A stretch of DNA of 33,808 nt from a virus. Of the stretch, positions 493 through 33,808 are shown in pieces. Position 1 is the stretch's first letter; each line of letters starts with the position of its first letter. The translations under genes were made by a program, and so were the position numbers. The stretch spans positions 1 through 33,808 of IMG/VR virus record IMGVR_UViG_3300050343_000058. The stretch is one strand, 5' to 3'. The notes below the pieces were generated by a model. It was given only the letters and a program-made list of their open reading frames with translations. It did no database searches and was not told where the DNA came from.

Positions 493-500
493 CAAATATA
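493..500 (-). promoter_or_regulatory. Candidate -7 box TATATTTG of the early promoter
   Basis: TATATTTG on the minus strand matches the Bacteroidota -7 consensus TAnnTTTG and lies 18 bases before the start codon at 475, just after the terminator at 546-570. No clear TTG is found 19 bases upstream (TTTAG is closest), so the -33 element is weak or absent. Confidence 0.4.
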
Positions 501-545
501 TAATGAGTTATTTATATACTAAAGACTTTTAACATAGCTTTAACA

Positions 546-570
546 GAAAAGGGTGACCTAAGCCACCCCA
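546..570 (-). terminator. Rho-independent terminator closing the lysis unit
   Basis: On the minus strand GGGTG and CACCC pair around the loop GCTTAGGT and are followed by TTTTC. It lies about 43 bases after the stop of the 613-990 gene and before the candidate early promoter, so it separates the late lysis genes from the early operon. Confidence 0.65.
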
Positions 571-612: not shown

Positions 613-990
613 TTACCAGATATAAAATGCCCTCTCTTTAAGGTCATCAGTATCAAAATAAACATATTCATTACTAACACCTATTCTATGAACCCCTTGC
701 TGAACTAATCCTCTAACAAGAGTTAATCTTTTCTTTGCACCTACACATCTAATCTTAATAGCTTTACCTACTCTATGAGAGTTGCTTCTTACTAATCTAA
801 GTTTATCTGCATGAGGTTTGCTTACATAACCTAAAATAACCTTTACAGTTATTCTGTATTTACTTACTAGATTATCTAATATTAAAACTGGTTCTCTTTC
901 CATAAACTTATAACCAGAGTTAGGAAGGTCAGGACTATCAAACATATCCCAAGTTAAATACTTTAAACCTTCACAATTATCTATATTCAT
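613..990 (-). CDS. Degenerate M15-type peptidase homologue (probable pseudoenzyme)
   Basis: A 125-residue protein with the architecture of the small phage M15_3 peptidases (D-Ala-D-Ala carboxypeptidase/endolysin fold): an N-terminal FDSPDLPNSG segment, a GYVSKPHADKLRLVRSNSH core corresponding to the usual GYRT..HN..VGG..SSH, and a C-terminal IGVSNEYVYFDTDD segment. Active enzymes use His, Asp and His as zinc ligands. Here the first His is kept (H72), but the Asp seven residues later is Lys79 and the last His is Tyr111. It is therefore probably not a zinc peptidase, while the fold and perhaps peptidoglycan binding remain. It is separated from the lysis genes by about 280 bases, has its own promoter (1009-1038) and is followed by a terminator. 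The family assignment is from memory of motif spacing; the role is unknown. Confidence 0.7.
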   Translation of the reverse strand: MNIDNCEGLKYLTWDMFDSPDLPNSGYKFMEREPVLILDNLVSKYRITVKVILGYVSKPHADKLRLVRSNSHRVGKAIKIRCVGAKKRLTLVRGLVQQGVHRIGVSNEYVYFDTDDLKERAFYIW

Positions 991-1008
991 TATTTATAGT
1001 AACTTACT

Positions 1009-1038
1009 GCAATATAATAATAATATATATAACTACAA
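1009..1038 (-). promoter_or_regulatory. Promoter TTG-N19-TATATTGC for the M15-like gene
   Basis: On the minus strand TTG (1036-1038) is followed after exactly 19 bases by TATATTGC (1009-1016), close to the Bacteroidota form TTG-N19-TAnnTTTG. The same arrangement, including the extension TATATTGCAGTAA and a TTTGTAG start, occurs before the Erf gene (33615-33644). It lies 19 bases before the ATG at 990. Confidence 0.6.
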
Positions 1039-1061
1039 AAATAATTATTTATTTAATTAAC

Positions 1062-9920: not shown

Positions 9921-10274
9921 TTATATTACTATGTATTCGTCTTCAGAACCAGCACCATATTCAGTGTACTTGTTCGTATTTAATGTGTGTATTACTTCAT
10001 CATTTGTTTGAGAAGTTACATAAGCCTTATCTCTATACCATAAATTACCACCTTTACTGAATTGTAAGTAGTAAGCAGTTTCATCTTTTAATATAGTAGA
10101 AGCTAATGATACAGAAACAAAGTTTCCATTGTCAGAAGCTGTAAGGTCTGTTAGTGTTTCGCTTTTGTTTGTTCCGTCTTGTGTTATAGTAAGATTTATA
10201 CTTGACAAAGACGTTTTGTCTCTAGGGATTATATTAATCGTCTGAGAATCTGTATTTGGAAGTAATCTTATCAT
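9921..10274 (-). CDS. Small beta-rich structural protein
   Basis: A 117-residue protein dominated by Thr, Ser and Ile in alternating patterns (INLTITQDGTNKSETLTDLTASDNG), suggesting a small beta sandwich. It ends one base before the portal start and follows a terminator, so portal, connector and fibre may be read from a promoter near here. Proteins of this size and composition are frequent next to fibre and portal genes in marine flavophages; a virion role is plausible but unproven. Confidence 0.55.
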   Translation of the reverse strand: MIRLLPNTDSQTINIIPRDKTSLSSINLTITQDGTNKSETLTDLTASDNGNFVSVSLASTILKDETAYYLQFSKGGNLWYRDKAYVTSQTNDEVIHTLNTNKYTEYGAGSEDEYIVI

Positions 10275-10311
10275 AATAAGATAACTGAAAAGTATTGATT
10301 TTGTTTTATAT

Positions 10312-10338: not shown

Positions 10339-10342
10339 TATC

Positions 10343-10371
10343 TATTATGTTTAAGAGTGTACTATGTTTAA
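10343..10371 (-). repeat. Repeat array B: two copies of the TTAAACATAGTA element
   Basis: Copies at 10343-10354 (one mismatch, ATAATA) and 10360-10371 (exact), 17 bases apart. The first transcribed copy supplies the TAA stop (10368-10370) of the tail-tube-like gene, exactly as at array A (both read AAC TCT TAA), and the array is followed at once by the terminator at 10312-10338. Confidence 0.8.
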
Positions 10372-10895
10372 GAGTTCACAACAGTAAACCCAGTAGTTGT
10401 TGGGTCAGCATCAATAAGAAATTAGCAGGAATCTTTTCCATCCCTGTTAATGTTAATGTGTATCCACTTAAATCTCCCATAGCACCACCTGTTACAACAG
10501 TTCCTCCTGAAACATCCATTCCATGCTCTAATCCAGACAAGAAATAGTTTCCGTTATTATCTTTTATGATAACGTGAGGTCTTCCCCAAGAAAGTAATTT
10601 TAATTCCTTGTGGTCAGCAACAGTTAGTTTGTGTAAAGAAAGTTCTAGTACTTGCTCAAAAGCAGTTGTTCCATTCTCTCTACTAGATTGAATGTTTTGT
10701 GTAAAAGATGAAGTTCCTTTAATATCGTATTCGTAAGCACTTGGAGAACCAGCAACAGCTTCTATAGAATCTGTGTTAGTTGTGTCATAAGCGATAGTCT
10801 CCTATTGTGCCATAATTAACAAAGTAAACTTTATCTAATCCACCAACGCTGTCTTTACAAGGCTCTGTTCTATATAGTGATAAATTACAAGACAT
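10368..10895 (-). CDS. Major tail (tube) protein-like, two compensating frame changes
   Basis: Read as one gene it gives 175 residues: MSCNLSLYRTEPCKDSVGGL..., then AYEYDIKGTSSFTQNIQSSR, LHKLTVADHKELKLLSW, NYFLSGLEHGMDVSGG and a C-terminal IDADPTTTGFTVVNS. The pattern (two early Cys, a glycine-rich C-terminal half, YTLTLTGMEKIPANFL) fits the tail-tube or major tail proteins of Bacteroidota phages. The sequence needs a +1 change near GACTATCGCTTATGAC (about 10787-10802) and a -1 change near TTTCTTATTGATG (about 10416-10428); the two cancel. I regard these as probable sequence errors. It lies directly after the capsid gene, which is an unusual place for a tail tube. Confidence 0.65.
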
Positions 10896-12464: not shown

Positions 12465-13931
12465 TTAGTTAGCAGCACTACAAGCATCACAATCATTATA
12501 TAAGGTTGCTGATTCTATATGGTGTTCTCCGCTAGCAGAAACATTGAGTACAGTATAACAATTACTGTGTCCTGAGTTCTCAAACTCTAAGTAGTACACG
12601 TTACCAACTACAAGTTGAGTATCGTGTAAATGTATCTCTTTATGCATTGAATGACCACATCTTTGTACCCTATAATAATACTCATCTCCAGAAGGACTTT
12701 CTCCTTTTATTTTGCCTATTCCTTGAGCCTGTAATGAACCATCACAACACTTTGTTGAATAAGTTCCGTTAGCACATAAACATCCCCTTCTATCCCAACA
12801 AGGACTCTTAGTAGTTGCTCCAGCTTCTACCGAATGTGATTCACAAGGCATATACCACATCTTTCCTTCATACTCATGTTCGTGTATTAATTCACATCCT
12901 ATATCTTTAGCCATCTCTAATGCTTTCTCTTCAGAAGAGTATGCTAATCTATCATCTATAATAGCATAATCATCATTTATTATTTCAGAGTATAATGCAG
13001 TAACCGAATTGTTTACTTTCTTATCTATCCTTTTAAGTTTAGATATAGCCCAGTTAACACCAGCAGAACCACCCCAAGCATCCCACATTATTCCTCCACA
13101 TCCTTCAGAGTATGGTACATCTTTGTTTTGTTGATGTCTTTTAAAACTAGCCATTCTAGCAATCGTGGACCTTGTTATTTTTTGTTTATTAGCTAATTGT
13201 GAAGCTCTTCTCCAGCCTACGGAAGTTCCACAAGAACTACCATTTTCCTTTTTATACTTTAAAGCTCTCTTTGCATTGTTTACTGCACCTTGTGGATAAT
13301 CGTTATATGATTCTAATTCTACTTCTTGTGAATCTAAGAATGCTTCTTCCATTTCATATAATTTAGATAAAGCTTCCATTTCATCAAAGTCTTCTTCTAC
13401 ACTTTCTTTTGGTCTTTCATCTAACTTATCAGCAAAGAAACCTTCTATAGAGAACCCTTTTACTTTACCTTCTTTTACAAAGTTGTTCCATACTTCATCA
13501 TTATTTACTTTTACAGATACCATCCAAGTTCCTATAGGTAAATCAAAACCATATTTTCTTGACTTGTCTTTCTTTTTATCTTCTATAATCCAAGATTCTA
13601 CAACAGATAACCCATTGAGTTTAACGTCGTGTTCTAAAGTTGAATTGTTTTGTTTGCCTCTTGATAAGAATAATTCAGATGCTTTCCTAACAGTATCCTC
13701 ACTAAAGAATATATTATACTCATCTTCTCCATTAGTTCTGTATATTTTTTTATTAGGTATAAGAGCAGCACCCATTAAGATTCTTTTCTCTTTATCTACT
13801 TCAGCAAGTTTTACTTGTTGTTTCTTTAATGCAATAAAGTCTTCTTCTATTGCTGGATTCTCGACAACGCTTATAGCTTCTATTCCACTAAATTCGTTCT
13901 CTTCATCAATATATAGTTCTATTGTTTTCAT
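12465..13931 (-). CDS. Head maturation protease (XkdF-type) with extra C-terminal domains
   Basis: A 488-residue protein. Residues about 45-170 resemble the XkdF putative phage serine proteases: ILMGAALIPNKKIYR, FFSEDTVRKASELF, STLEHDVKLNGLSVVESWII, GTWMVSVKVNND, KGFSIEGFFADKL. Then follows a module of about 85 residues (YPQGAVNNAKRALKYKKENG ... ARMASFKRHQQNKDVPYSEG, WDAWGG, WAISKLKRID) that I know as a common insertion in Bacteroidota phage head proteins. The last 130 residues hold a Cys-rich region (CWDRRGCLCANG, KCCDG, CDAC) with His, possibly metal-binding. It would cleave scaffold and capsid arms. It lies directly before scaffold and capsid genes. Confidence 0.75.
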   Translation of the reverse strand: MKTIELYIDEENEFSGIEAISVVENPAIEEDFIALKKQQVKLAEVDKEKRILMGAALIPNKKIYRTNGEDEYNIFFSEDTVRKASELFLSRGKQNNSTLEHDVKLNGLSVVESWIIEDKKKDKSRKYGFDLPIGTWMVSVKVNNDEVWNNFVKEGKVKGFSIEGFFADKLDERPKESVEEDFDEMEALSKLYEMEEAFLDSQEVELESYNDYPQGAVNNAKRALKYKKENGSSCGTSVGWRRASQLANKQKITRSTIARMASFKRHQQNKDVPYSEGCGGIMWDAWGGSAGVNWAISKLKRIDKKVNNSVTALYSEIINDDYAIIDDRLAYSSEEKALEMAKDIGCELIHEHEYEGKMWYMPCESHSVEAGATTKSPCWDRRGCLCANGTYSTKCCDGSLQAQGIGKIKGESPSGDEYYYRVQRCGHSMHKEIHLHDTQLVVGNVYYLEFENSGHSNCYTVLNVSASGEHHIESATLYNDCDACSAAN

Positions 13932-13966
13932 AATATGATAACTTTTATTTTTGTATTTTGTTTTAT

Positions 13967-20683: not shown

Positions 20684-20931
20684 TATCTATTTTTATTATA
20701 AGCGTTTTTAATCATCTTTTGTTCTAGGTCGTTTTTCTCTTTCTCAAACTCTAACCATATCAAGCACTGGTGTAATGAAATTTTTGTGACTTCACTAATT
20801 CTTGATACGTCTTTTCCAGCGAGAGCATAAATTGATTGATACCATCCCCATTTCTTTCCAAAGCCTTCTCCTGCGTTGAAGTTTGATTCTGCTTTTGCTG
20901 AAGGAGTAAATAGTCCATCGTATATTTGCAT
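20683..20931 (-). CDS. Tail assembly chaperone, T-like extension in the -1 frame
   Basis: 82 residues in the -1 frame relative to the gene upstream, overlapping it by 172 bases. The part FGKKWGWYQSIYALAGKDVS, RISEVTKISLHQCLIWLEFE, KEKNDLEQKMIKN is typical of the second tail chaperone (gpT-like), which is normally made only as a frameshift fusion to the first (gpG-like). An ATG exists at 20929-20931, but the -1 frame is open further upstream through the T9 run at 20951-20959, so synthesis as a fusion is likely. It would guide the tube around the tape measure. Confidence 0.65.
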   Translation of the reverse strand: MQIYDGLFTPSAKAESNFNAGEGFGKKWGWYQSIYALAGKDVSRISEVTKISLHQCLIWLEFEKEKNDLEQKMIKNAYNKNR

Positions 20932-21476
20932 AATTTTTTCCCTAAACGATAAAAAAAAACCATTGCACCTAAAGCAACATTAACAGGAGCATCTTTCATT
21001 ACCTCCCAGTACCTATCTGTACCATCATAATCTTCAATTAGATATTTACCATTGTTATTATATTTAATAGGTCTGTATAGTACTGCCATTGCTTTGTGCA
21101 TACTATCCCAATCAGACATAAAGCTTTCTAAATCCACATACTCACCAAATGTCATTTCATCTAAAGAAGGTATCATACCAAAGCTAACCTCTACACCATT
21201 AGAGCCAGTCATGCTAAACTCCTTTATTAGTGGAGTAGGTTCTTCAAAGCATTTACCTATTTGATTTAATACCCTATCAAACATCGTAACAGGTAGATTA
21301 TAAGATTCTTTTAATGTTAATCCACAGAATATTTGAATACACTTAGAGTTAAGAAAGTTTGCAGCATCCTCAACATCTTCATTCTCCTTTTGTATCTTTA
21401 AGTATTCTTGATACTGTCTAAGTTTAATAGCTTCTAACTTCTGTGGTACCTTTAATTCTAATTCTATTATTGCCAT
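20760..21476 (-). CDS. Tail assembly chaperone, G-like
   Basis: 238 residues; the first late gene after the long control region. Recognisable pieces are MAIIELELKVPQKLEAIKLR, the core MTFGEYVDLESFMSDWDSMH, KAMAVLYRPIKYNNNGKYLI, NVALGAMVFFYRLG and the C-terminal NGDGINQFMLSLEKTYQELV, all characteristic of the large G-like tail chaperone of Bacteroidota phages. The C-terminal 57 residues are encoded by the same DNA as the T-like ORF in another frame. It would bind the tape measure during tail assembly and is not expected in the virion. It has an A/T-rich leader and follows a palindrome at 21540-21556. Confidence 0.7.
   Translation of the reverse strand: MAIIELELKVPQKLEAIKLRQYQEYLKIQKENEDVEDAANFLNSKCIQIFCGLTLKESYNLPVTMFDRVLNQIGKCFEEPTPLIKEFSMTGSNGVEVSFGMIPSLDEMTFGEYVDLESFMSDWDSMHKAMAVLYRPIKYNNNGKYLIEDYDGTDRYWEVMKDAPVNVALGAMVFFYRLGKKLCKYTMDYLLLQQKQNQTSTQEKALERNGDGINQFMLSLEKTYQELVKSQKFHYTSA
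20951..20960 (-). promoter_or_regulatory. Candidate -1 frameshift site: T9 run in frame G-TT TTT TTT TAT
   Basis: In the G frame the codons are GTT TTT TTT TAT, which contains the slippery form T TTT TTT. A -1 slip gives LSFREKIM and continues into the T-like frame with no stop. A second, weaker possibility is GGG AAA AAA at about 20936-20944. A homopolymer of nine is also a likely place for sequence error. Confidence 0.45.
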
Positions 21477-21539
21477 ATAGTATGATAACTAAAAAAGTAT
21501 AATTCTGTACCACCAATGCTTTATAGTAAGTGTGTATTG

Positions 21540-21556: not shown

Positions 21557-21890
21557 TTGTGTTATTTAGAATAAGTATAAACTACCTCATATTGGTTGTA
21601 TAGGTTGAACAAAAACACTATATTGCAGTTATCTTATTGTAGTTGGAAATCTACATAACAAGTTCCTAAACTTCTGTCACAAATGTAAGGCAGTTGGTTC
21701 AGGCACACTAAGTCAGCTAAGTGATTGCAATGTTATTCTTTTAATCATCTTTTGTCCAGCACCCAAACATTATTCAACCTTACCTGCATTTCTATTTATT
21801 TAAAGATGTTAAGGGGGTGCATACTTCAGTATACTTAGCAGTGTACATACTTCTACTTGCTAATAAAAATGAGTTTGCTTATAATTTTCT

Positions 21891-21977
21891 AGGGTGCCTA
21901 ATAGAAACAAGTCGTTAGGTTTGAGGTACCCCCACCTCAAAATGGTTTGAATTCATAGAAGAGGGCTACTCAGCTCC
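21891..21977 (-). ncRNA. Cluster of three hairpins, possible structured RNA
   Basis: On the minus strand three hairpins follow one another: GAGCT/AGCCC around GAGT (21964-21977), the strong 8-bp stem TTTGAGGT/ACCTCAAA around GGGGGT (21920-21941), and CCTAA/TTAGG around a 13-base loop (21897-21919). No T run follows. The GC content is clearly higher than in the flanks. It could be a structured leader of the late mRNA or a small RNA; no known family is recognised. Confidence 0.35.
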
Positions 21978-22002
21978 CCATACTTCATTTTACGTTAATA
22001 TA

Positions 22003-22010
22003 CAAATATA
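22003..22010 (-). promoter_or_regulatory. Candidate late promoter -7 box TATATTTG
   Basis: TATATTTG fits TAnnTTTG and lies just upstream of the hairpin cluster. The sequence 19 bases before is CTT, not TTG, so the -33 element is weak. Transcription from here would give a leader of about 500 bases before the first late gene. Confidence 0.35.
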
Positions 22011-22225
22011 TTCTGTTAATATTATGTTAAAGTTTTAATGACTTAATATAAGACGTTTTAAGCTACTTTAATGTTTAAGTGATATGTTTATATAGGTGAT
22101 AGGGAGAAGATGGCTTAGAAGGGATAAAATCATCTTTGTTTGTTATATCTGAGACACATAACCTATTTAATTACAAAAGAGTTATAAAATAAGTGCATTA
22201 CTCTAATAGGTTAAATATAGGGTAT

Positions 22226-22250
22226 AAAAAAACCCCAATTAAGGGGCTTT
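22226..22250 (-). terminator. Rho-independent terminator after the accessory block
   Basis: On the minus strand AAAGCCCC and GGGGTTTTTTT pair around TTAATT and end in seven T residues. It lies 25 bases after the stop of the 22276-22650 gene, with one degenerate repeat copy (22252-22263) in between. Confidence 0.8.
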
Positions 22251-23103: not shown

Positions 23104-23320
23104 ATTATATATATTAATTTTAATCAAAGATAATCAAACTAATTTAATTAACAAATAATTAACAATGATAATATTAATTTATATTAATTCTAAATAATAA
23201 CCTTAACAAATATTTAACTAATTATTTTTATTTGGTTTGCTACTTTGCAAAGATGAAGAAGAACGCAAAAGTATTATCTAGAATGATTCTAAATAAGAAA
23301 ATAGAAAATCCCCAAAAATG
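23104..23320. other. Intergenic region with promoter, accessory block
   Basis: About 215 bases between repeat array C and the 33-residue membrane ORF. It holds the promoter at 23125-23154 and, on the plus strand, the start of a 46-codon ORF (23253-23393) that reads through the repeat array. The rest is AT-rich without recognisable structure. Confidence 0.5.
23125..23154 (-). promoter_or_regulatory. Promoter TTG-N19-TATCTTTG
   Basis: On the minus strand TTG (23152-23154) is followed after exactly 19 bases by TATCTTTG (23125-23132), a full match to the Bacteroidota consensus TTG-N19-TAnnTTTG. It would drive the membrane ORF and the two acidic accessory genes to the terminator at 22226. Confidence 0.7.
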
Positions 23321-23355
23321 TACTGCGTTTAATGATGTACTATGTTTAAGGGGAT
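23303..23355 (-). terminator. Weak terminator-like hairpin within repeat array C
   Basis: ATCCCC (23350-23355) and GGGGAT (23308-23313) can pair on the minus strand, followed by TTTTCT. The loop is 36 bases and contains two repeat copies, so the hairpin is weaker than the others. Confidence 0.35.
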
Positions 23356-23393
23356 ATAAAAACCTACTATGTTTAAGGATGTACTGCGTTTAA
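23321..23393 (-). repeat. Repeat array C: four copies of the 12-base element
   Basis: Copies at 23321-23332 and 23382-23393 (both TTAAACGCAGTA) and at 23338-23349 and 23365-23376 (both TTAAACATAGTA), so the arrangement is symmetrical: variant, main, main, variant with steps 17, 27, 17. The first transcribed copy supplies the TAA stop (23390-23392) of the 23390-23728 gene. Confidence 0.85.
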
Positions 23394-23728
23394 ATATATT
23401 CCCAATTATTATTCTTTAATATCTTAACAGGGTTTCCGTTCCATTTCTTATCAGCTAGAAACCATTGAAAGTTTTTTTGGTATATCTTATCAAATCCTAT
23501 TGAATCTAATAATCCGTTTAATCTTTCTTTTGTAGTGTTAGAAAACCAACCAGAGTTTGTTATTATTAAACTACTATACTTTTTATATGCTATTAAATTA
23601 TTATGTAAAAATAGCTTTGTTATTGGTGTTAATGAACATTCGTTACCATACCAAACTTGAGTATTATCTTTAGTAAAGTTTTCGTTATTATTAAATTTGT
23701 TTACTGCTTGTTTTGTTATTTGTCTCAT
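23390..23728 (-). CDS. Conserved phage protein of unknown function
   Basis: I place the start at the ATG 23726-23728 (MRQITKQAVNKFNNN), directly after the stop of the upstream gene; an ATG 30 bases earlier lies inside that gene. The 112-residue protein contains YSSLIITNSGWFSNTTKERL, NGLLDSIGFDKIYQKNFQWF and a final W-NG-P pattern. Proteins with GWFTNTTKERLNG are common in Bacteroidota phages, with no function known to me. The stop lies within array C. Confidence 0.6.
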   Translation of the reverse strand: MRQITKQAVNKFNNNENFTKDNTQVWYGNECSLTPITKLFLHNNLIAYKKYSSLIITNSGWFSNTTKERLNGLLDSIGFDKIYQKNFQWFLADKKWNGNPVKILKNNNWEYI

Positions 23729-25739: not shown

Positions 25740-25985
25740 AGTGTTTTACTTTTTGTTTACCCAAATATATAAACAAATAGTTAACAATTACAACTTGTTA
25801 ACAAAACTTTAACATAATCAAAGTGTCCTTATTATTGCGTGTGCGTGTATACAAAAAATAATTGAGACTAGCAAAATATTTTTGGTTTGGCTAATGGAAT
25901 ATTAACAAAAGATATTTGAACAAAGGAAAGTTCTATCTATTTAGAATCATTTCAGATAAGAGAGTTTTGGCTCAATCAGAAAACC
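25740..25985. other. Intergenic region upstream of the accessory block
   Basis: About 245 bases with no gene on either strand. It contains the promoter/inverted-repeat region at 25762-25801 and a GC-richer GCGTGTGCGTGTATAC tract (about 25838-25853), otherwise AT-rich. It separates the terminase operon and array D from the accessory genes. Confidence 0.5.
25762..25801 (-). promoter_or_regulatory. Promoter region with inverted repeat, accessory block
   Basis: TATATTTG (25762-25769) fits the -7 consensus and lies 23 bases before the ATG at 25739; a TTG (25791-25793) precedes it by 21 bases. The -33 region lies in the inverted repeat TTAACA-N9-TGTTAA (25781-25801), which could be an operator blocking the promoter. 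Confidence 0.4.
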
Positions 25986-26062
25986 TACTATGTTTAACGA
26001 CCTACTATGTTTAAGAGTAGAGAAGAACCTACTATGTTTAAGAAGTAACCTACTATGTTTAA
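25986..26062 (-). repeat. Repeat array D: four exact copies of TTAAACATAGTA
   Basis: Copies at 25986-25997, 26003-26014, 26030-26041 and 26051-26062, steps 17, 27 and 21, all same orientation and each followed by GG on the transcribed strand. The array starts three bases after the stop codon of the large terminase and marks the end of the replication/packaging module. Confidence 0.85.
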
Positions 26063-26065
26063 TGA

Positions 26066-26251
26066 TTACCTGATGACATACTTGCCAGAGTTCTGACCTT
26101 GTATAAGAAACATAAGTCCGTATCTGATAGCATCAATGTAGTGTTCATAACCTATGTTAGGTTTAGTATTTCTTTCTTGCCACACATAGTTATTAAGTTC
26201 TCTTACAATACCATGAGACTTTCTATCTACTACAATCTCATAGTCTTGCAT
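26066..26251 (-). CDS. terL: Terminase large subunit, C-terminal (nuclease) fragment
   Basis: 61 residues open in the frame +1 to the main terminase ORF. Upstream of its first Met the same frame reads NIRPTIKKKGSILSGIAL, the usual continuation of a terminase nuclease domain, so this is the end of the same protein. It carries the last acidic residue of the RNase H-like nuclease (YEHYIDAIRYGL, Asp). The stop (26066) is directly followed by repeat array D. Confidence 0.8.
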   Translation of the reverse strand: MQDYEIVVDRKSHGIVRELNNYVWQERNTKPNIGYEHYIDAIRYGLMFLIQGQNSGKYVIR

Positions 26252-26273
26252 TAAAGCAATACCAGAAAGTATA

Positions 26274-27281
26274 CTACCTTTCTTTTTTATTGTAGGTCTT
26301 ATGTTTAAGTCTCCCTTTCTGTTTTATCTCTTTGATAAGTCTAGGTTCACTTGAGTCACATATAATTAAGTCAGCTCCACATTCCATCTTATTCTTCATT
26401 GCTATCTCTGTTGTAGACAATCCTGCTTTACCATAGATTTCTTTTACATATAACTTACCTAAAGCTCTATCTACTGATATCTTTACAAGCGTTGTCAAAT
26501 CAACCGAAAATCCAAAATCTTGGCAATAACAGGTTGTTTCTGTTTGTATGTAATCTCCTACTCTCCAGTTCTTAAAGATAGCTCCTTCTGCTGCTGAAAG
26601 CCAGCCACCAAGTATCTGATGTTCATACTTGTCTGGTCTCTTTAATTTCATTTCAAATATCTGTTCTAAGAATGACTCAGATAAATTGTCTTTATTGTCT
26701 TTGTAACTTGTGTGTATGTATGTGGTTTTATTAGATGAACCATTCCAACCTGAGTTCACACCAGAAGTTTGAAAGAACCTTTGATATATCCAGTGTTCTT
26801 TAGTAGTTGGATTTAATATAAGTATACATCTATTCTGTTTAATCTGAGACCTTACAGAGAAATCAATCTTATCAAAAGAAGATTCATCTGTTAACTCTTC
26901 TGCTTCATCAATAACAAACGTTGTAACGCCATTTAGAGACTTCAGGGCAGCCGTTTGATTACCACTTGATGTTCTGATACCTTTAAAGATTATTGAGCTT
27001 CCTGTGGTCATATTTATAATCTCATCTTTAGTAATTCTAAAGTGGTCATTTACTCCCATTAAATCTATCTTCTCTATAAACTCAGGAATAATAGAAGTCT
27101 GTGCTGATATCATTGTATACCTAGTAAACAGAACTTTATGTCCTTGCTCATAGGTTAATGATAATAAGAATACAGCTACACCAAATGATTTACCAGAACC
27201 TCTACCTCCAGTACACACGAAGTATCTGCTCTTTGCAGTAAACAGAGGACTGTATTTATCGTTTAACTTTAGGTTATTCAT
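26274..27281 (-). CDS. terL: Terminase large subunit, ATPase and nuclease domains
   Basis: 335 residues. The Walker A motif TGGRGSGKS is at 24-32, Walker B FVIDEAEE at 122-129, and the motor motif ILNPTT follows. The nuclease part begins with YCQDFGFSVDLTTLV (Asp) and LIICDSSEPRLIKEI (Asp). The protein packages DNA into proheads and cuts it. The frame ends early (KHKTYNKKER) because of a one-base change between GGG AGA CTT AAA C; the rest is at 26066-26251, giving about 415 residues in total. It overlaps the small subunit by 8 bases. PBSX/phage-type terminase family by motif order. Confidence 0.9.
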   Translation of the reverse strand: MNNLKLNDKYSPLFTAKSRYFVCTGGRGSGKSFGVAVFLLSLTYEQGHKVLFTRYTMISAQTSIIPEFIEKIDLMGVNDHFRITKDEIINMTTGSSIIFKGIRTSSGNQTAALKSLNGVTTFVIDEAEELTDESSFDKIDFSVRSQIKQNRCILILNPTTKEHWIYQRFFQTSGVNSGWNGSSNKTTYIHTSYKDNKDNLSESFLEQIFEMKLKRPDKYEHQILGGWLSAAEGAIFKNWRVGDYIQTETTCYCQDFGFSVDLTTLVKISVDRALGKLYVKEIYGKAGLSTTEIAMKNKMECGADLIICDSSEPRLIKEIKQKGRLKHKTYNKKER

Positions 27282-30740: not shown

Positions 30741-30899
30741 TTATTTATTTTTATTTGATATTAAAACACCATTTCTTTTTACTTTAGGACTTCTTTCTCT
30801 TTCTAACAAAGATTCTTTTTGTAGCCTTTTCCTAGCCTTTTGAGCCTTAGACGTTGCTTTGATATGTTTTTGTCCTTTTAATGGTTTAAATTGTCTCAT
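30741..30899 (-). CDS. Small very basic protein
   Basis: 52 residues: MRQFKPLKGQKHIKATSKAQ, then KARKRLQKESLLERERSPKV. Highly basic (about a third Lys/Arg). The ATG overlaps the stop of the sigma-like gene (ATGA). A DNA- or RNA-binding role is likely from composition, but no family is recognised. Confidence 0.5.
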   Translation of the reverse strand: MRQFKPLKGQKHIKATSKAQKARKRLQKESLLERERSPKVKRNGVLISNKNK

Positions 30900-31453
30900 A
30901 ATAAATGATAATCTCCGTTTAAGTAATCCTCTATATCTTCTATAAACTTGTCTTTTAGTATTGCTCTATAATTCTTTATAGAATTAAATATGCTAGTTAA
31001 ACTTATATTTGTTCCTTTGGATATTTGCCTTAAAGACATATTTCCTGAATAATAAGTATTACATAGTTTAGCATCATAGCTATGCCAAGAATTAATCTCT
31101 CTAGCTAACTTCATTGTTATTTTATAGAATGCTTCTTCCTTCTCTGTTTCAGTGTCTGAATATAAATACTCTGCTGTATGTATTGTATCTGCATCATCTG
31201 TTTCAATGTAACTAAAGAAAGTATATTTGTTTTTAGCTTTCTTATAATCAGTATATAAGTTTCTTAATGTGACATATATGTAAAATCTATTTACATCATC
31301 ATCACCATACATTATCTTTCTTTTATCAGTAACTAATCTGTTTATCTTTAAATACATTTCCTGTACTATATCTTCACAAAGATGTCTAGGACATCCCATA
31401 TTAGAAACCATCTTTACCCATAATAGATGATTCTTAGCCAACAATTCTAACAT
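30896..31453 (-). CDS. Sigma-70-like (ECF-type) RNA polymerase factor
   Basis: 185 residues with the layout of a small sigma factor: region 2 near residues 27-70 (EDIVQEMYLKINRLV and RFYIYVTLRNLYTDYKKAK, matching the EDxxQExx signature of sigma region 2) and a C-terminal helix-turn-helix (about 140-170, SLRQISKGTNISLTSIFNSI). It would direct host RNA polymerase to phage promoters at a later stage. The recurring TTG-N19-TATATTGCAGTAA promoters (1009, 33615) are natural candidate targets. It lies between the resolvase and the basic peptide and is coupled to both (1- and 4-base gaps). The family is weakly conserved here. Confidence 0.7.
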   Translation of the reverse strand: MLELLAKNHLLWVKMVSNMGCPRHLCEDIVQEMYLKINRLVTDKRKIMYGDDDVNRFYIYVTLRNLYTDYKKAKNKYTFFSYIETDDADTIHTAEYLYSDTETEKEEAFYKITMKLAREINSWHSYDAKLCNTYYSGNMSLRQISKGTNISLTSIFNSIKNYRAILKDKFIEDIEDYLNGDYHLL

Positions 31454-32721: not shown

Positions 32722-32748
32722 TAAAAGGGGGAAATTAATCCCCCTGAT
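32722..32748 (-). terminator. Rho-independent terminator after the SSB-like gene
   Basis: On the minus strand GGGGG and CCCCC pair around ATTAATTT, followed by TTTTATTTT. It divides the Erf-SSB pair from the ATPase and following genes and probably sets a different expression level for the abundant SSB. Confidence 0.75.
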
Positions 32749-33042: not shown

Positions 33043-33597
33043 TTAAGATTTAATATTAGTTAATTTAGTTTCTACAGTTTTAGATATATTGAATTTCTTT
33101 TTTATATCTAAAATCTTTCCTCCTTTTTTAATGTGTGCTATTGCTTTGTTAAATTCAGGGGTACCTTCATTAAGCCATTTAAGACTTGAAGTTGCGTGAG
33201 TGTTAGTTGAATCAGCATCTTTAGTATCATCAATTAACAATAAGCCATTTAAAGCATACTTTCTAGCATAAGAACTAGAGCTGCCAAATGACTGAGATAT
33301 ATCCATACCTTTCTTATTAATATCAATACCAGCTTGTGCAACTGATTCAATCTTACCATCTGTGCCATGTAGTATAGCTCTTGCTTCTACATAACAAATT
33401 CCTGATGGTGTTTCATTAATTGTGTCAGTTAAAGTTATAGATAACTCATACTTACTCAACAATGGTTTTACAGCTTCCAAAATGTCTTCTTGGTTTCTGT
33501 ATCTGTACTTACCAAAACTATTGTATTGGCTTTTAGGTGCTTTTAATTCTGACTGAATTGCAATTACCTTTTGTTCAAAATTTAATGTTTTCGACAT
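33043..33597 (-). CDS. erf: Erf-family single-strand annealing protein
   Basis: 184 residues with the two conserved parts of the Erf family: YNSFGKYRYRNQEDILEAVK (25-44) and QSFGSSSSYARKYALNGLLL (102-121), followed by DDTKDAD. Erf proteins anneal complementary strands and circularise or recombine phage genomes; the last 60 residues are a variable helical tail with HIKKGGKILDIKKKFN. It is the first gene behind a clear promoter (33615-33644) and precedes the SSB-like gene. With the PD-(D/E)XK exonuclease it completes a recombination system. Confidence 0.85.
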   Translation of the reverse strand: MSKTLNFEQKVIAIQSELKAPKSQYNSFGKYRYRNQEDILEAVKPLLSKYELSITLTDTINETPSGICYVEARAILHGTDGKIESVAQAGIDINKKGMDISQSFGSSSSYARKYALNGLLLIDDTKDADSTNTHATSSLKWLNEGTPEFNKAIAHIKKGGKILDIKKKFNISKTVETKLTNIKS

Positions 33598-33614
33598 ACT
33601 TTGTTTGTTTTACT

Positions 33615-33644
33615 GCAATATACAACTTTATTTTATATCTACAA
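33615..33644 (-). promoter_or_regulatory. Promoter TTG-N19-TATATTGC for erf
   Basis: TTG (33642-33644) and TATATTGC (33615-33622) are separated by exactly 19 bases, with TTTGTAG at the start and the extension TATATTGCAGTAA, as at 1009-1038. It lies 18 bases before the Erf ATG. Its -33 element lies in the coding sequence of the junction-spanning ORF. Confidence 0.6.
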
Positions 33645-33808
33645 ATCGATTAGATACAACCTCAGTGGTTAAGTCGTCTACTGCTTGTTTATAATAGTTT
33701 AATTCTGAGGATTTATACATAACTTTTAATTGTAATTCATTTACATAAAAAGCTAGTTCGTTTAACTGAGTTATAATAGTATCAATGTGTCTAGCACTTA
33801 TTCTACCT
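33628..33808 (-). CDS. Junction-spanning hypothetical protein, C-terminal part
   Basis: 59 residues open from position 33807 (frame set by the junction) to a TAA at 33628: SARHIDTIITQLNELAFYVN, ELQLKVMYKSSELNYYKQAV, DDLTTEVVSNRFVDIK. Joined to the part at 1-98 this is one 92-residue protein. Helical, without a recognised domain. The end of the gene holds the -33 element of the Erf promoter. Confidence 0.7.
   Translation of the reverse strand, partial: GRISARHIDTIITQLNELAFYVNELQLKVMYKSSELNYYKQAVDDLTTEVVSNRFVDIK

Follow-up and report, generated by a model that had tools for sequence, protein, structure and literature searches.

A sigma-like gene in the early operon of a marine phage genome raises the question of which promoters its product would read. 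The window analysed here is a viral stretch of 33,808 nt, and all coordinates below are window positions. A sequence-only reading of this DNA had distinguished two promoter classes, one with the box TATATTGC and one of the normal host type, and considered that the first may be read either by the phage factor or, as an early class, by host sigma. Our results indicate that these two classes omit the one that fits a phage sigma, namely AACA-N15-AGTTATC located before late genes.

Results

A predicted ECF-type sigma factor in the early operon

The sigma-like gene reported in the operon after erf is indeed present. Counted from erf it comes fifth among genes of one direction (30896..31453, minus strand), and sequence profiles agree with an AlphaFold model of the product, P0001 (185 aa). 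By the profiles and the predicted fold P0001 is an ECF-type sigma factor. It has only two domains, sigma2 (residues ~1-82) and sigma4 (~107-175), connected by a linker, as do ECF sigma factors of ~160-200 aa in general, and its C-terminal tail EDxxDYxNGDYxxI is strongly conserved across the family. P0001 itself has no Pfam match and scores 25 bits against TIGR02937 (sigma70-ECF), under the curated cut-off of 42.9 bits. Among the 27 aligned family members, which are 25–95% identical to P0001, 26 match TIGR02937 (best E 9.5e-14), 21 match PHROG 1740 (RNA polymerase sigma factor) and 10 match Pfam region 2. A PDB sequence search returned nothing meaningful. The AlphaFold model has a mean pLDDT of 78 and a pTM of 0.40, the latter presumably reflecting a flexible connection between the two domains. 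Each domain of the model aligns to ECF factors (Foldseek, VIA-align), specifically to sigma2 of RpoE with an rmsd of 2.5 over 77 residues and to region 4 of E. coli sigmaE on −35 DNA with an rmsd of 1.9 over 69/69 residues.

Promoters ahead of the early genes

As a record, the window is circularly permuted, and two relatives have its ends joined. Promoters A and B are thus separated by 1202 bp when the circle is closed, and they stand at the head of the early region. The TTTGTAG, spacer of 19 and box that had been noticed at two promoters are exact copies of TTTGTAG-N16-TATATTGCAGTAA, a sequence that occurs exactly twice on the minus strand of the window. Promoter A (1004..1039, minus strand) ends 13 bases 5' of the ATG at 990 of ORF gp125 (613-990, minus strand) and promoter B (33610..33645, minus strand) 12 bases 5' of the ATG at 33597 of the Erf-like annealing protein (33043..33597, minus strand); each of these genes is the first behind its promoter. 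The part from TTG to TATATTGC covers 1009-1038 and 33615-33644, exactly as first read. Since TTTG and TA are 19 bases apart at both sites and the spacers are unrelated, A and B do not represent a duplication. A terminator-like hairpin follows both units on the minus strand: GGGTGGCTTAGGTCACCC and then TTTTCT 3' of gp125 (548..570, read from sequence) and AGGGGGATTAATTTCCCCCT with a T-run 3' of the ssb-like gene (32726..32745). Note that gp125 is kept family-wide at the head of the early region and has no convincing match to any known family.

The two-part 20-base A/B pattern is specific. It is found in seven stretches among 2.9 million viral contigs, six of them from the same phage group. When up to three mismatches are allowed, TATATTGCAGTAA alone shows no enrichment in the window (43 occurrences, 36.4 expected). 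Comparison of spaced repeats in the window with shuffles was swamped by other repeat families and was dropped, as was a gapped TTTGTA-TATATTGCAG scan of all viral contigs, where spacing was flat over unrelated viruses and informative only for single phages. The core TTTGTA-N17-TATATTGCA is kept in ~15 close relatives, the family box being nearly always TATATTGCA, and the trailing GTAA is not kept. The letters shared by A and B in the window run past the −7 box, which is consistent with TATATTGCAGTAA being a host promoter overlapped by the operator of a phage repressor. However, GTAA at B is replaced by TTAA or TTTA at the erf site of close relatives and no regulator gene is tied to TATATTGCAGTAA, making an operator very unlikely.

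Regarding the host-type promoters, TTG-N19-TATCTTTG is present at 23125..23154 (minus strand, small-gene cassette) as the sequence-only reading had it, and is distinct from the A/B box. TTG-N21-TATATTTG is located at 25762..25793 (minus strand), also at a small-gene cassette. A candidate with the box TATATTTG (493..522, minus strand) precedes ORFs 263-475 and 73-258; in the closed circle it lies upstream of erf and the sigma gene, and the box is also found in the relative L003. Classes besides the normal host type are thus visible, as the earlier reading had it. Separately, a lineage-specific extended promoter, TTGC(G/A)TA(T/C)GTCA..CGTATGTTTGC, recurs within one genome (L074, positions 2371, 2713, 17076 and 17674) and is also found in L067 (4683).

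The window contains in addition a 15-base repeat, TTAAACATAGTAGGT, on the minus strand in clusters at 1956-2020, 10342-10375, 23320-23397 and 25980-26062. The clusters are located directly 3' of stop codons, between gene blocks. Nearly all close relatives have this repeat, and others have a related one, TTTAATATGATG.

Which polymerase reads the TATATTGC box

In F. psychrophilum, motif SM5 is TAnnTTGY at −12 to −5 from mapped starts, with TA and TTG one base closer together than in TAnnTTTG; reporter mutagenesis in one operon confirmed the conserved bases of SM5, and its authors assign it to an alternative sigma of unknown identity (PMC9723704). TATATTGC, the box of the SM5-like promoters A and B, fits SM5 exactly and differs from the sigmaA-type −7 box TAnnTTTG in the last two positions. 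In family upstream regions the TTG spacing is 19-20 for both box types, TAnnTTTG and TAnnTTGY (10+17 and 6+4 sites). At the erf and gp125 starts of more distant, sigma-bearing relatives, host-type TAnnTTTG boxes, TATATTTG or TATCTTTG, are found instead. The identity with SM5, this swap, the equal spacing and the location ahead of the sigma gene make it the best reading that the TATATTGC promoters are early, would be read by the host and serve early and recombination genes. Thus, of the two options offered originally, the early/host one is better supported and the phage-factor one less so. Given the alternative sigma that its authors propose for SM5, being read by the host does not equal being read by sigmaA.

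Alternatively, the phage sigma might read the TATATTGC class, with A and B acting as boosters for gp125 and erf-ssb after initial expression from host-type promoters. Every TATATTGC unit ends with a terminator-like hairpin, and the phage L001, found solely via the motif, encodes a sigma (29% identity); L142 and L194 encode one too. The family has 10 spaced TAnnTTGY promoters in 367 upstream regions, and base-by-base inspection of 145 such regions in five sigma-lacking phages found none, so TATATTGC and the phage sigma may yet be connected; the stricter TTTG-N18-20-TATATTGC has one match in 13 sigma-lacking Bacteroidota phages. Nevertheless, the same class occurs in chromosomal promoters of F. 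psychrophilum, the box and TAnnTTTG replace one another at the same gene starts among sigma-bearing relatives, the spacing of the box equals that of host promoters, and L138 has two TATATTGC-type promoters with no sigma found in its 24.9 kb record, which may be partial. With a better candidate site for the phage sigma at hand (below), reading of TATATTGC by this factor appears quite unlikely, and reading by the host is preferred.

A late promoter class in the window and in the family

The starting point for the late class was a third copy of TATATTGC (21619-21626, plus strand) in a noncoding gap of 770 bases. When this gap is aligned over 12 relatives the TATATTG box varies, and (G/A)AACA and GTTAT, ~16 bases apart, are kept. 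The resulting motif is AACA-N15-AGTTATC(A/T)TAnTAT; in the window lineage TATATTGC overlaps the promoter of this class. ECF sigma promoters combine an AAC-type −35 with a −10 that follows after about 16-17 bases, and the late class candidate has this layout.

Spacing between AACA and GTTATC peaks at 15-17 in the family, with sites directly 5' of terS, terL and the first structural gene. From ACA to (A/C)GTTAT the family peak is at 14-16 (17, 25 and 10 sites) and there is no such peak in sigma-lacking phages. GAAC alone as the −35 gave no spacing peak and was rejected. Strict sites number 3 in the window as compared to 0.1 in shuffles, plus one variant, and 70 in the family as compared to 9 in shuffles, near-identical contigs being counted. 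More specifically, two strict sites on the minus strand are each located 5 bases 5' of an ATG: one (13937..13962) before the ATG at 13931 of a head-maturation-protease-like gene (12465-13931), the other (10280..10305) before the ATG at 10274 of g117 (9921-10274), which has the genes for portal, tail fibre, endolysin and holin behind it and a hairpin with a T-run just upstream of its promoter. The variant TACA-N15-AGTTATCA, with TACA for AACA (21483..21509, minus strand), precedes gp238 (20760-21476), the first gene of the structural operon. The third strict site (21608..21633, plus strand) is divergent from the gp238 promoter and lies at the start of a structured RNA element. Taken over window and family, the class precedes the terminase small subunit, the head-protease-like gene, the portal-adjacent gene, the first gene of the structural operon and the structured RNA. 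As for the terminase large subunit, its gene is frameshifted at 26066-27281 in the window and is a single open frame of ~405 aa in relatives; the frameshift is probably a sequencing or assembly error.

Viral contigs were scanned for AAACAAA-N10..13-AGTTATCWTANTATG, a motif ending in the start codon, and at least 121 late sites were found. Among the matches listed, the gap is 12 (49 sites) or 13 (72 sites) although 10-13 was allowed. The gene 3' of the listed sites is g117 in 87 cases, terS in 14 and g488 in 10; nine lack an ORF of >=60 aa within the fragment and one has another gene. Hence 111 of the 121 listed sites precede homologues of g117, terS or g488. In the window, these late genes stand at the start of the segments that encode the head-maturation protease and the portal, tail fibre, endolysin and holin. 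The AACA-N15-AGTTATC promoter class is well supported by these observations.

A probable link between the late class and the sigma

Nonlabens phages P12024L and P12024S encode a divergent sigma (159 aa in P12024L), and each has six AAACAAA-N13-14-CGTTA sites, which share one strand; four of them were read in sequence and are 6 to 7 bases 5' of an annotated start codon. In 13 other Bacteroidota phages, where no ECF sigma is detectable, there are 0-1 late sites per phage, which equals background: in all, 5 sites in ~777 kb as compared to 7 for the reversed pattern. The −10 also varies with the sigma clade at constant AACA, being CGTTATA/G in L051-L063, CGTTAA in P12024L and AGTTATC in most others. 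In L051-L063, where the sigma is ~36% identical to P0001, CGTTATA/G stands at gene starts that have AGTTATC in most others, and the TATATTGCAG promoter 5' of exo is unchanged. A label test on the sigma tree found the −10 types clustered, with few independent changes, long branches that blur the tree and one row (L090) that is a paralogue. The late promoter by itself retrieved 13 longer records, of which six have the sigma and none was seen in seven; three of the seven were tested and also lack the early ATPase gene, so that these three look like fragments. A search of host genomes gave a single genome-contig locus (L100, in a MAG labelled Cellvibrionales) and was uninformative.

Together these patterns suggest that the late class would be read by the phage sigma. 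It should be considered that the elements are directly 5' of start codons and that their reading by sigma is deduced from sequence; AACA-N15-AGTTATC could instead serve host polymerase together with a phage activator, or be an RNA or translation signal. On the other hand, one conserved copy is 5' of a noncoding structured RNA, the element consists of two blocks at a fixed distance with an AAC −35, and it occurs in phages with the ECF sigma and at background level in those without. We regard these alternatives as unlikely and favour a promoter of the phage sigma.

A conserved RNA beside the structural operon

The noncoding region at 21627..22250 contains a conserved, covarying RNA element; it is assigned to the plus strand from the promoter only. 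In the consensus structure of 12 sequences 93.7% of cells are paired (75.8% when shuffled), 55 cells are changed on both sides (16.7 when shuffled), and sliding the alignment reduces pairing to 27-44%. Folding of single sequences was no better than of shuffles, and an Rfam search of the window, the element included, found no family at threshold. G–U counts and covariation do not settle the strand. The conserved late-type promoter suggests that the RNA is a plus-strand transcript, divergent from the structural operon.

Discussion

Based on the arrangement of promoters and genes, we consider a two-step transcription programme likely. Early in infection, host RNA polymerase would read TAnnTTTG-type promoters (e.g. 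493-522) and the TATATTGC promoters A and B. This would yield gp125, Erf and Ssb, with read-through supplying the ATPase, RusA and the phage ECF sigma. Late, the phage sigma, its sigma4 contacting AACA (−35) and its sigma2 (A/C)GTTAT (−10), would direct the host core polymerase to promoters directly 5' of terminase, the head protease, g117 with portal onward and the structural operon, and also to the divergent promoter of the conserved structured RNA. Most late sites have the start codon ~5 to 7 bases behind the −10. If the sites act as promoters, late mRNAs would therefore be leaderless or nearly so. Whether marine Bacteroidota siphophages in general share such a phage ECF-sigma late regulon, with lineage-tuned promoters, late mRNAs that lack leaders and a structured noncoding RNA transcribed divergently, is in our judgement evenly balanced.

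AACA-N15-AGTTATC is a newly recognised promoter type that is most likely used by the phage sigma for structural and packaging genes. For an abundant marine phage group it offers a promoter rule that is explicit and can be tested, with P12024L as a cultured representative, and natural sigma/promoter pairs for the study of changes in ECF specificity. A question separate from the promoter rule is raised by the conserved late RNA element. We found no open-access paper on phage-encoded sigma promoters in Bacteroidota phages; most subscription journals were outside the search.

Among known systems, F. psychrophilum SM5 has the same box as TATATTGC, but SM5 comes from mapped chromosomal starts and the phage box is nearly always TATATTGCA. 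SM6 and ECF promoters of this bacterium have a CGT box in the −10 region, similar to the CGTTA −10 of P12024L and L051-L063, whereas the window lineage has AGTTATC and the promoters considered here are late promoters of phages. For phages P12024L and P12024S (Inhavirus), the terminase large subunit is 54% identical, a sigma-70 region 2 gene lies upstream of terminase and there are six late-type sites, but the sigma is strongly diverged and the −10 is CGTTAA. Phages phiEco32, 7-11 and Privateer encode their own sigma, of ECF type in phiEco32-like phages, and have host promoters early and phage-sigma promoters 5' of structural genes (PMC4331800, PMC7881722). In the window phage, late-class elements precede late genes and may be read by its sigma. 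The phiEco32 group are enterobacterial prolate podophages, while those described here are phages of Bacteroidota. Unlike the phiEco32 group, the window phage has an AACA −35 with an (A/C)GTTAT −10, nearly leaderless starts as predicted from the sites, and a putative divergent late RNA.
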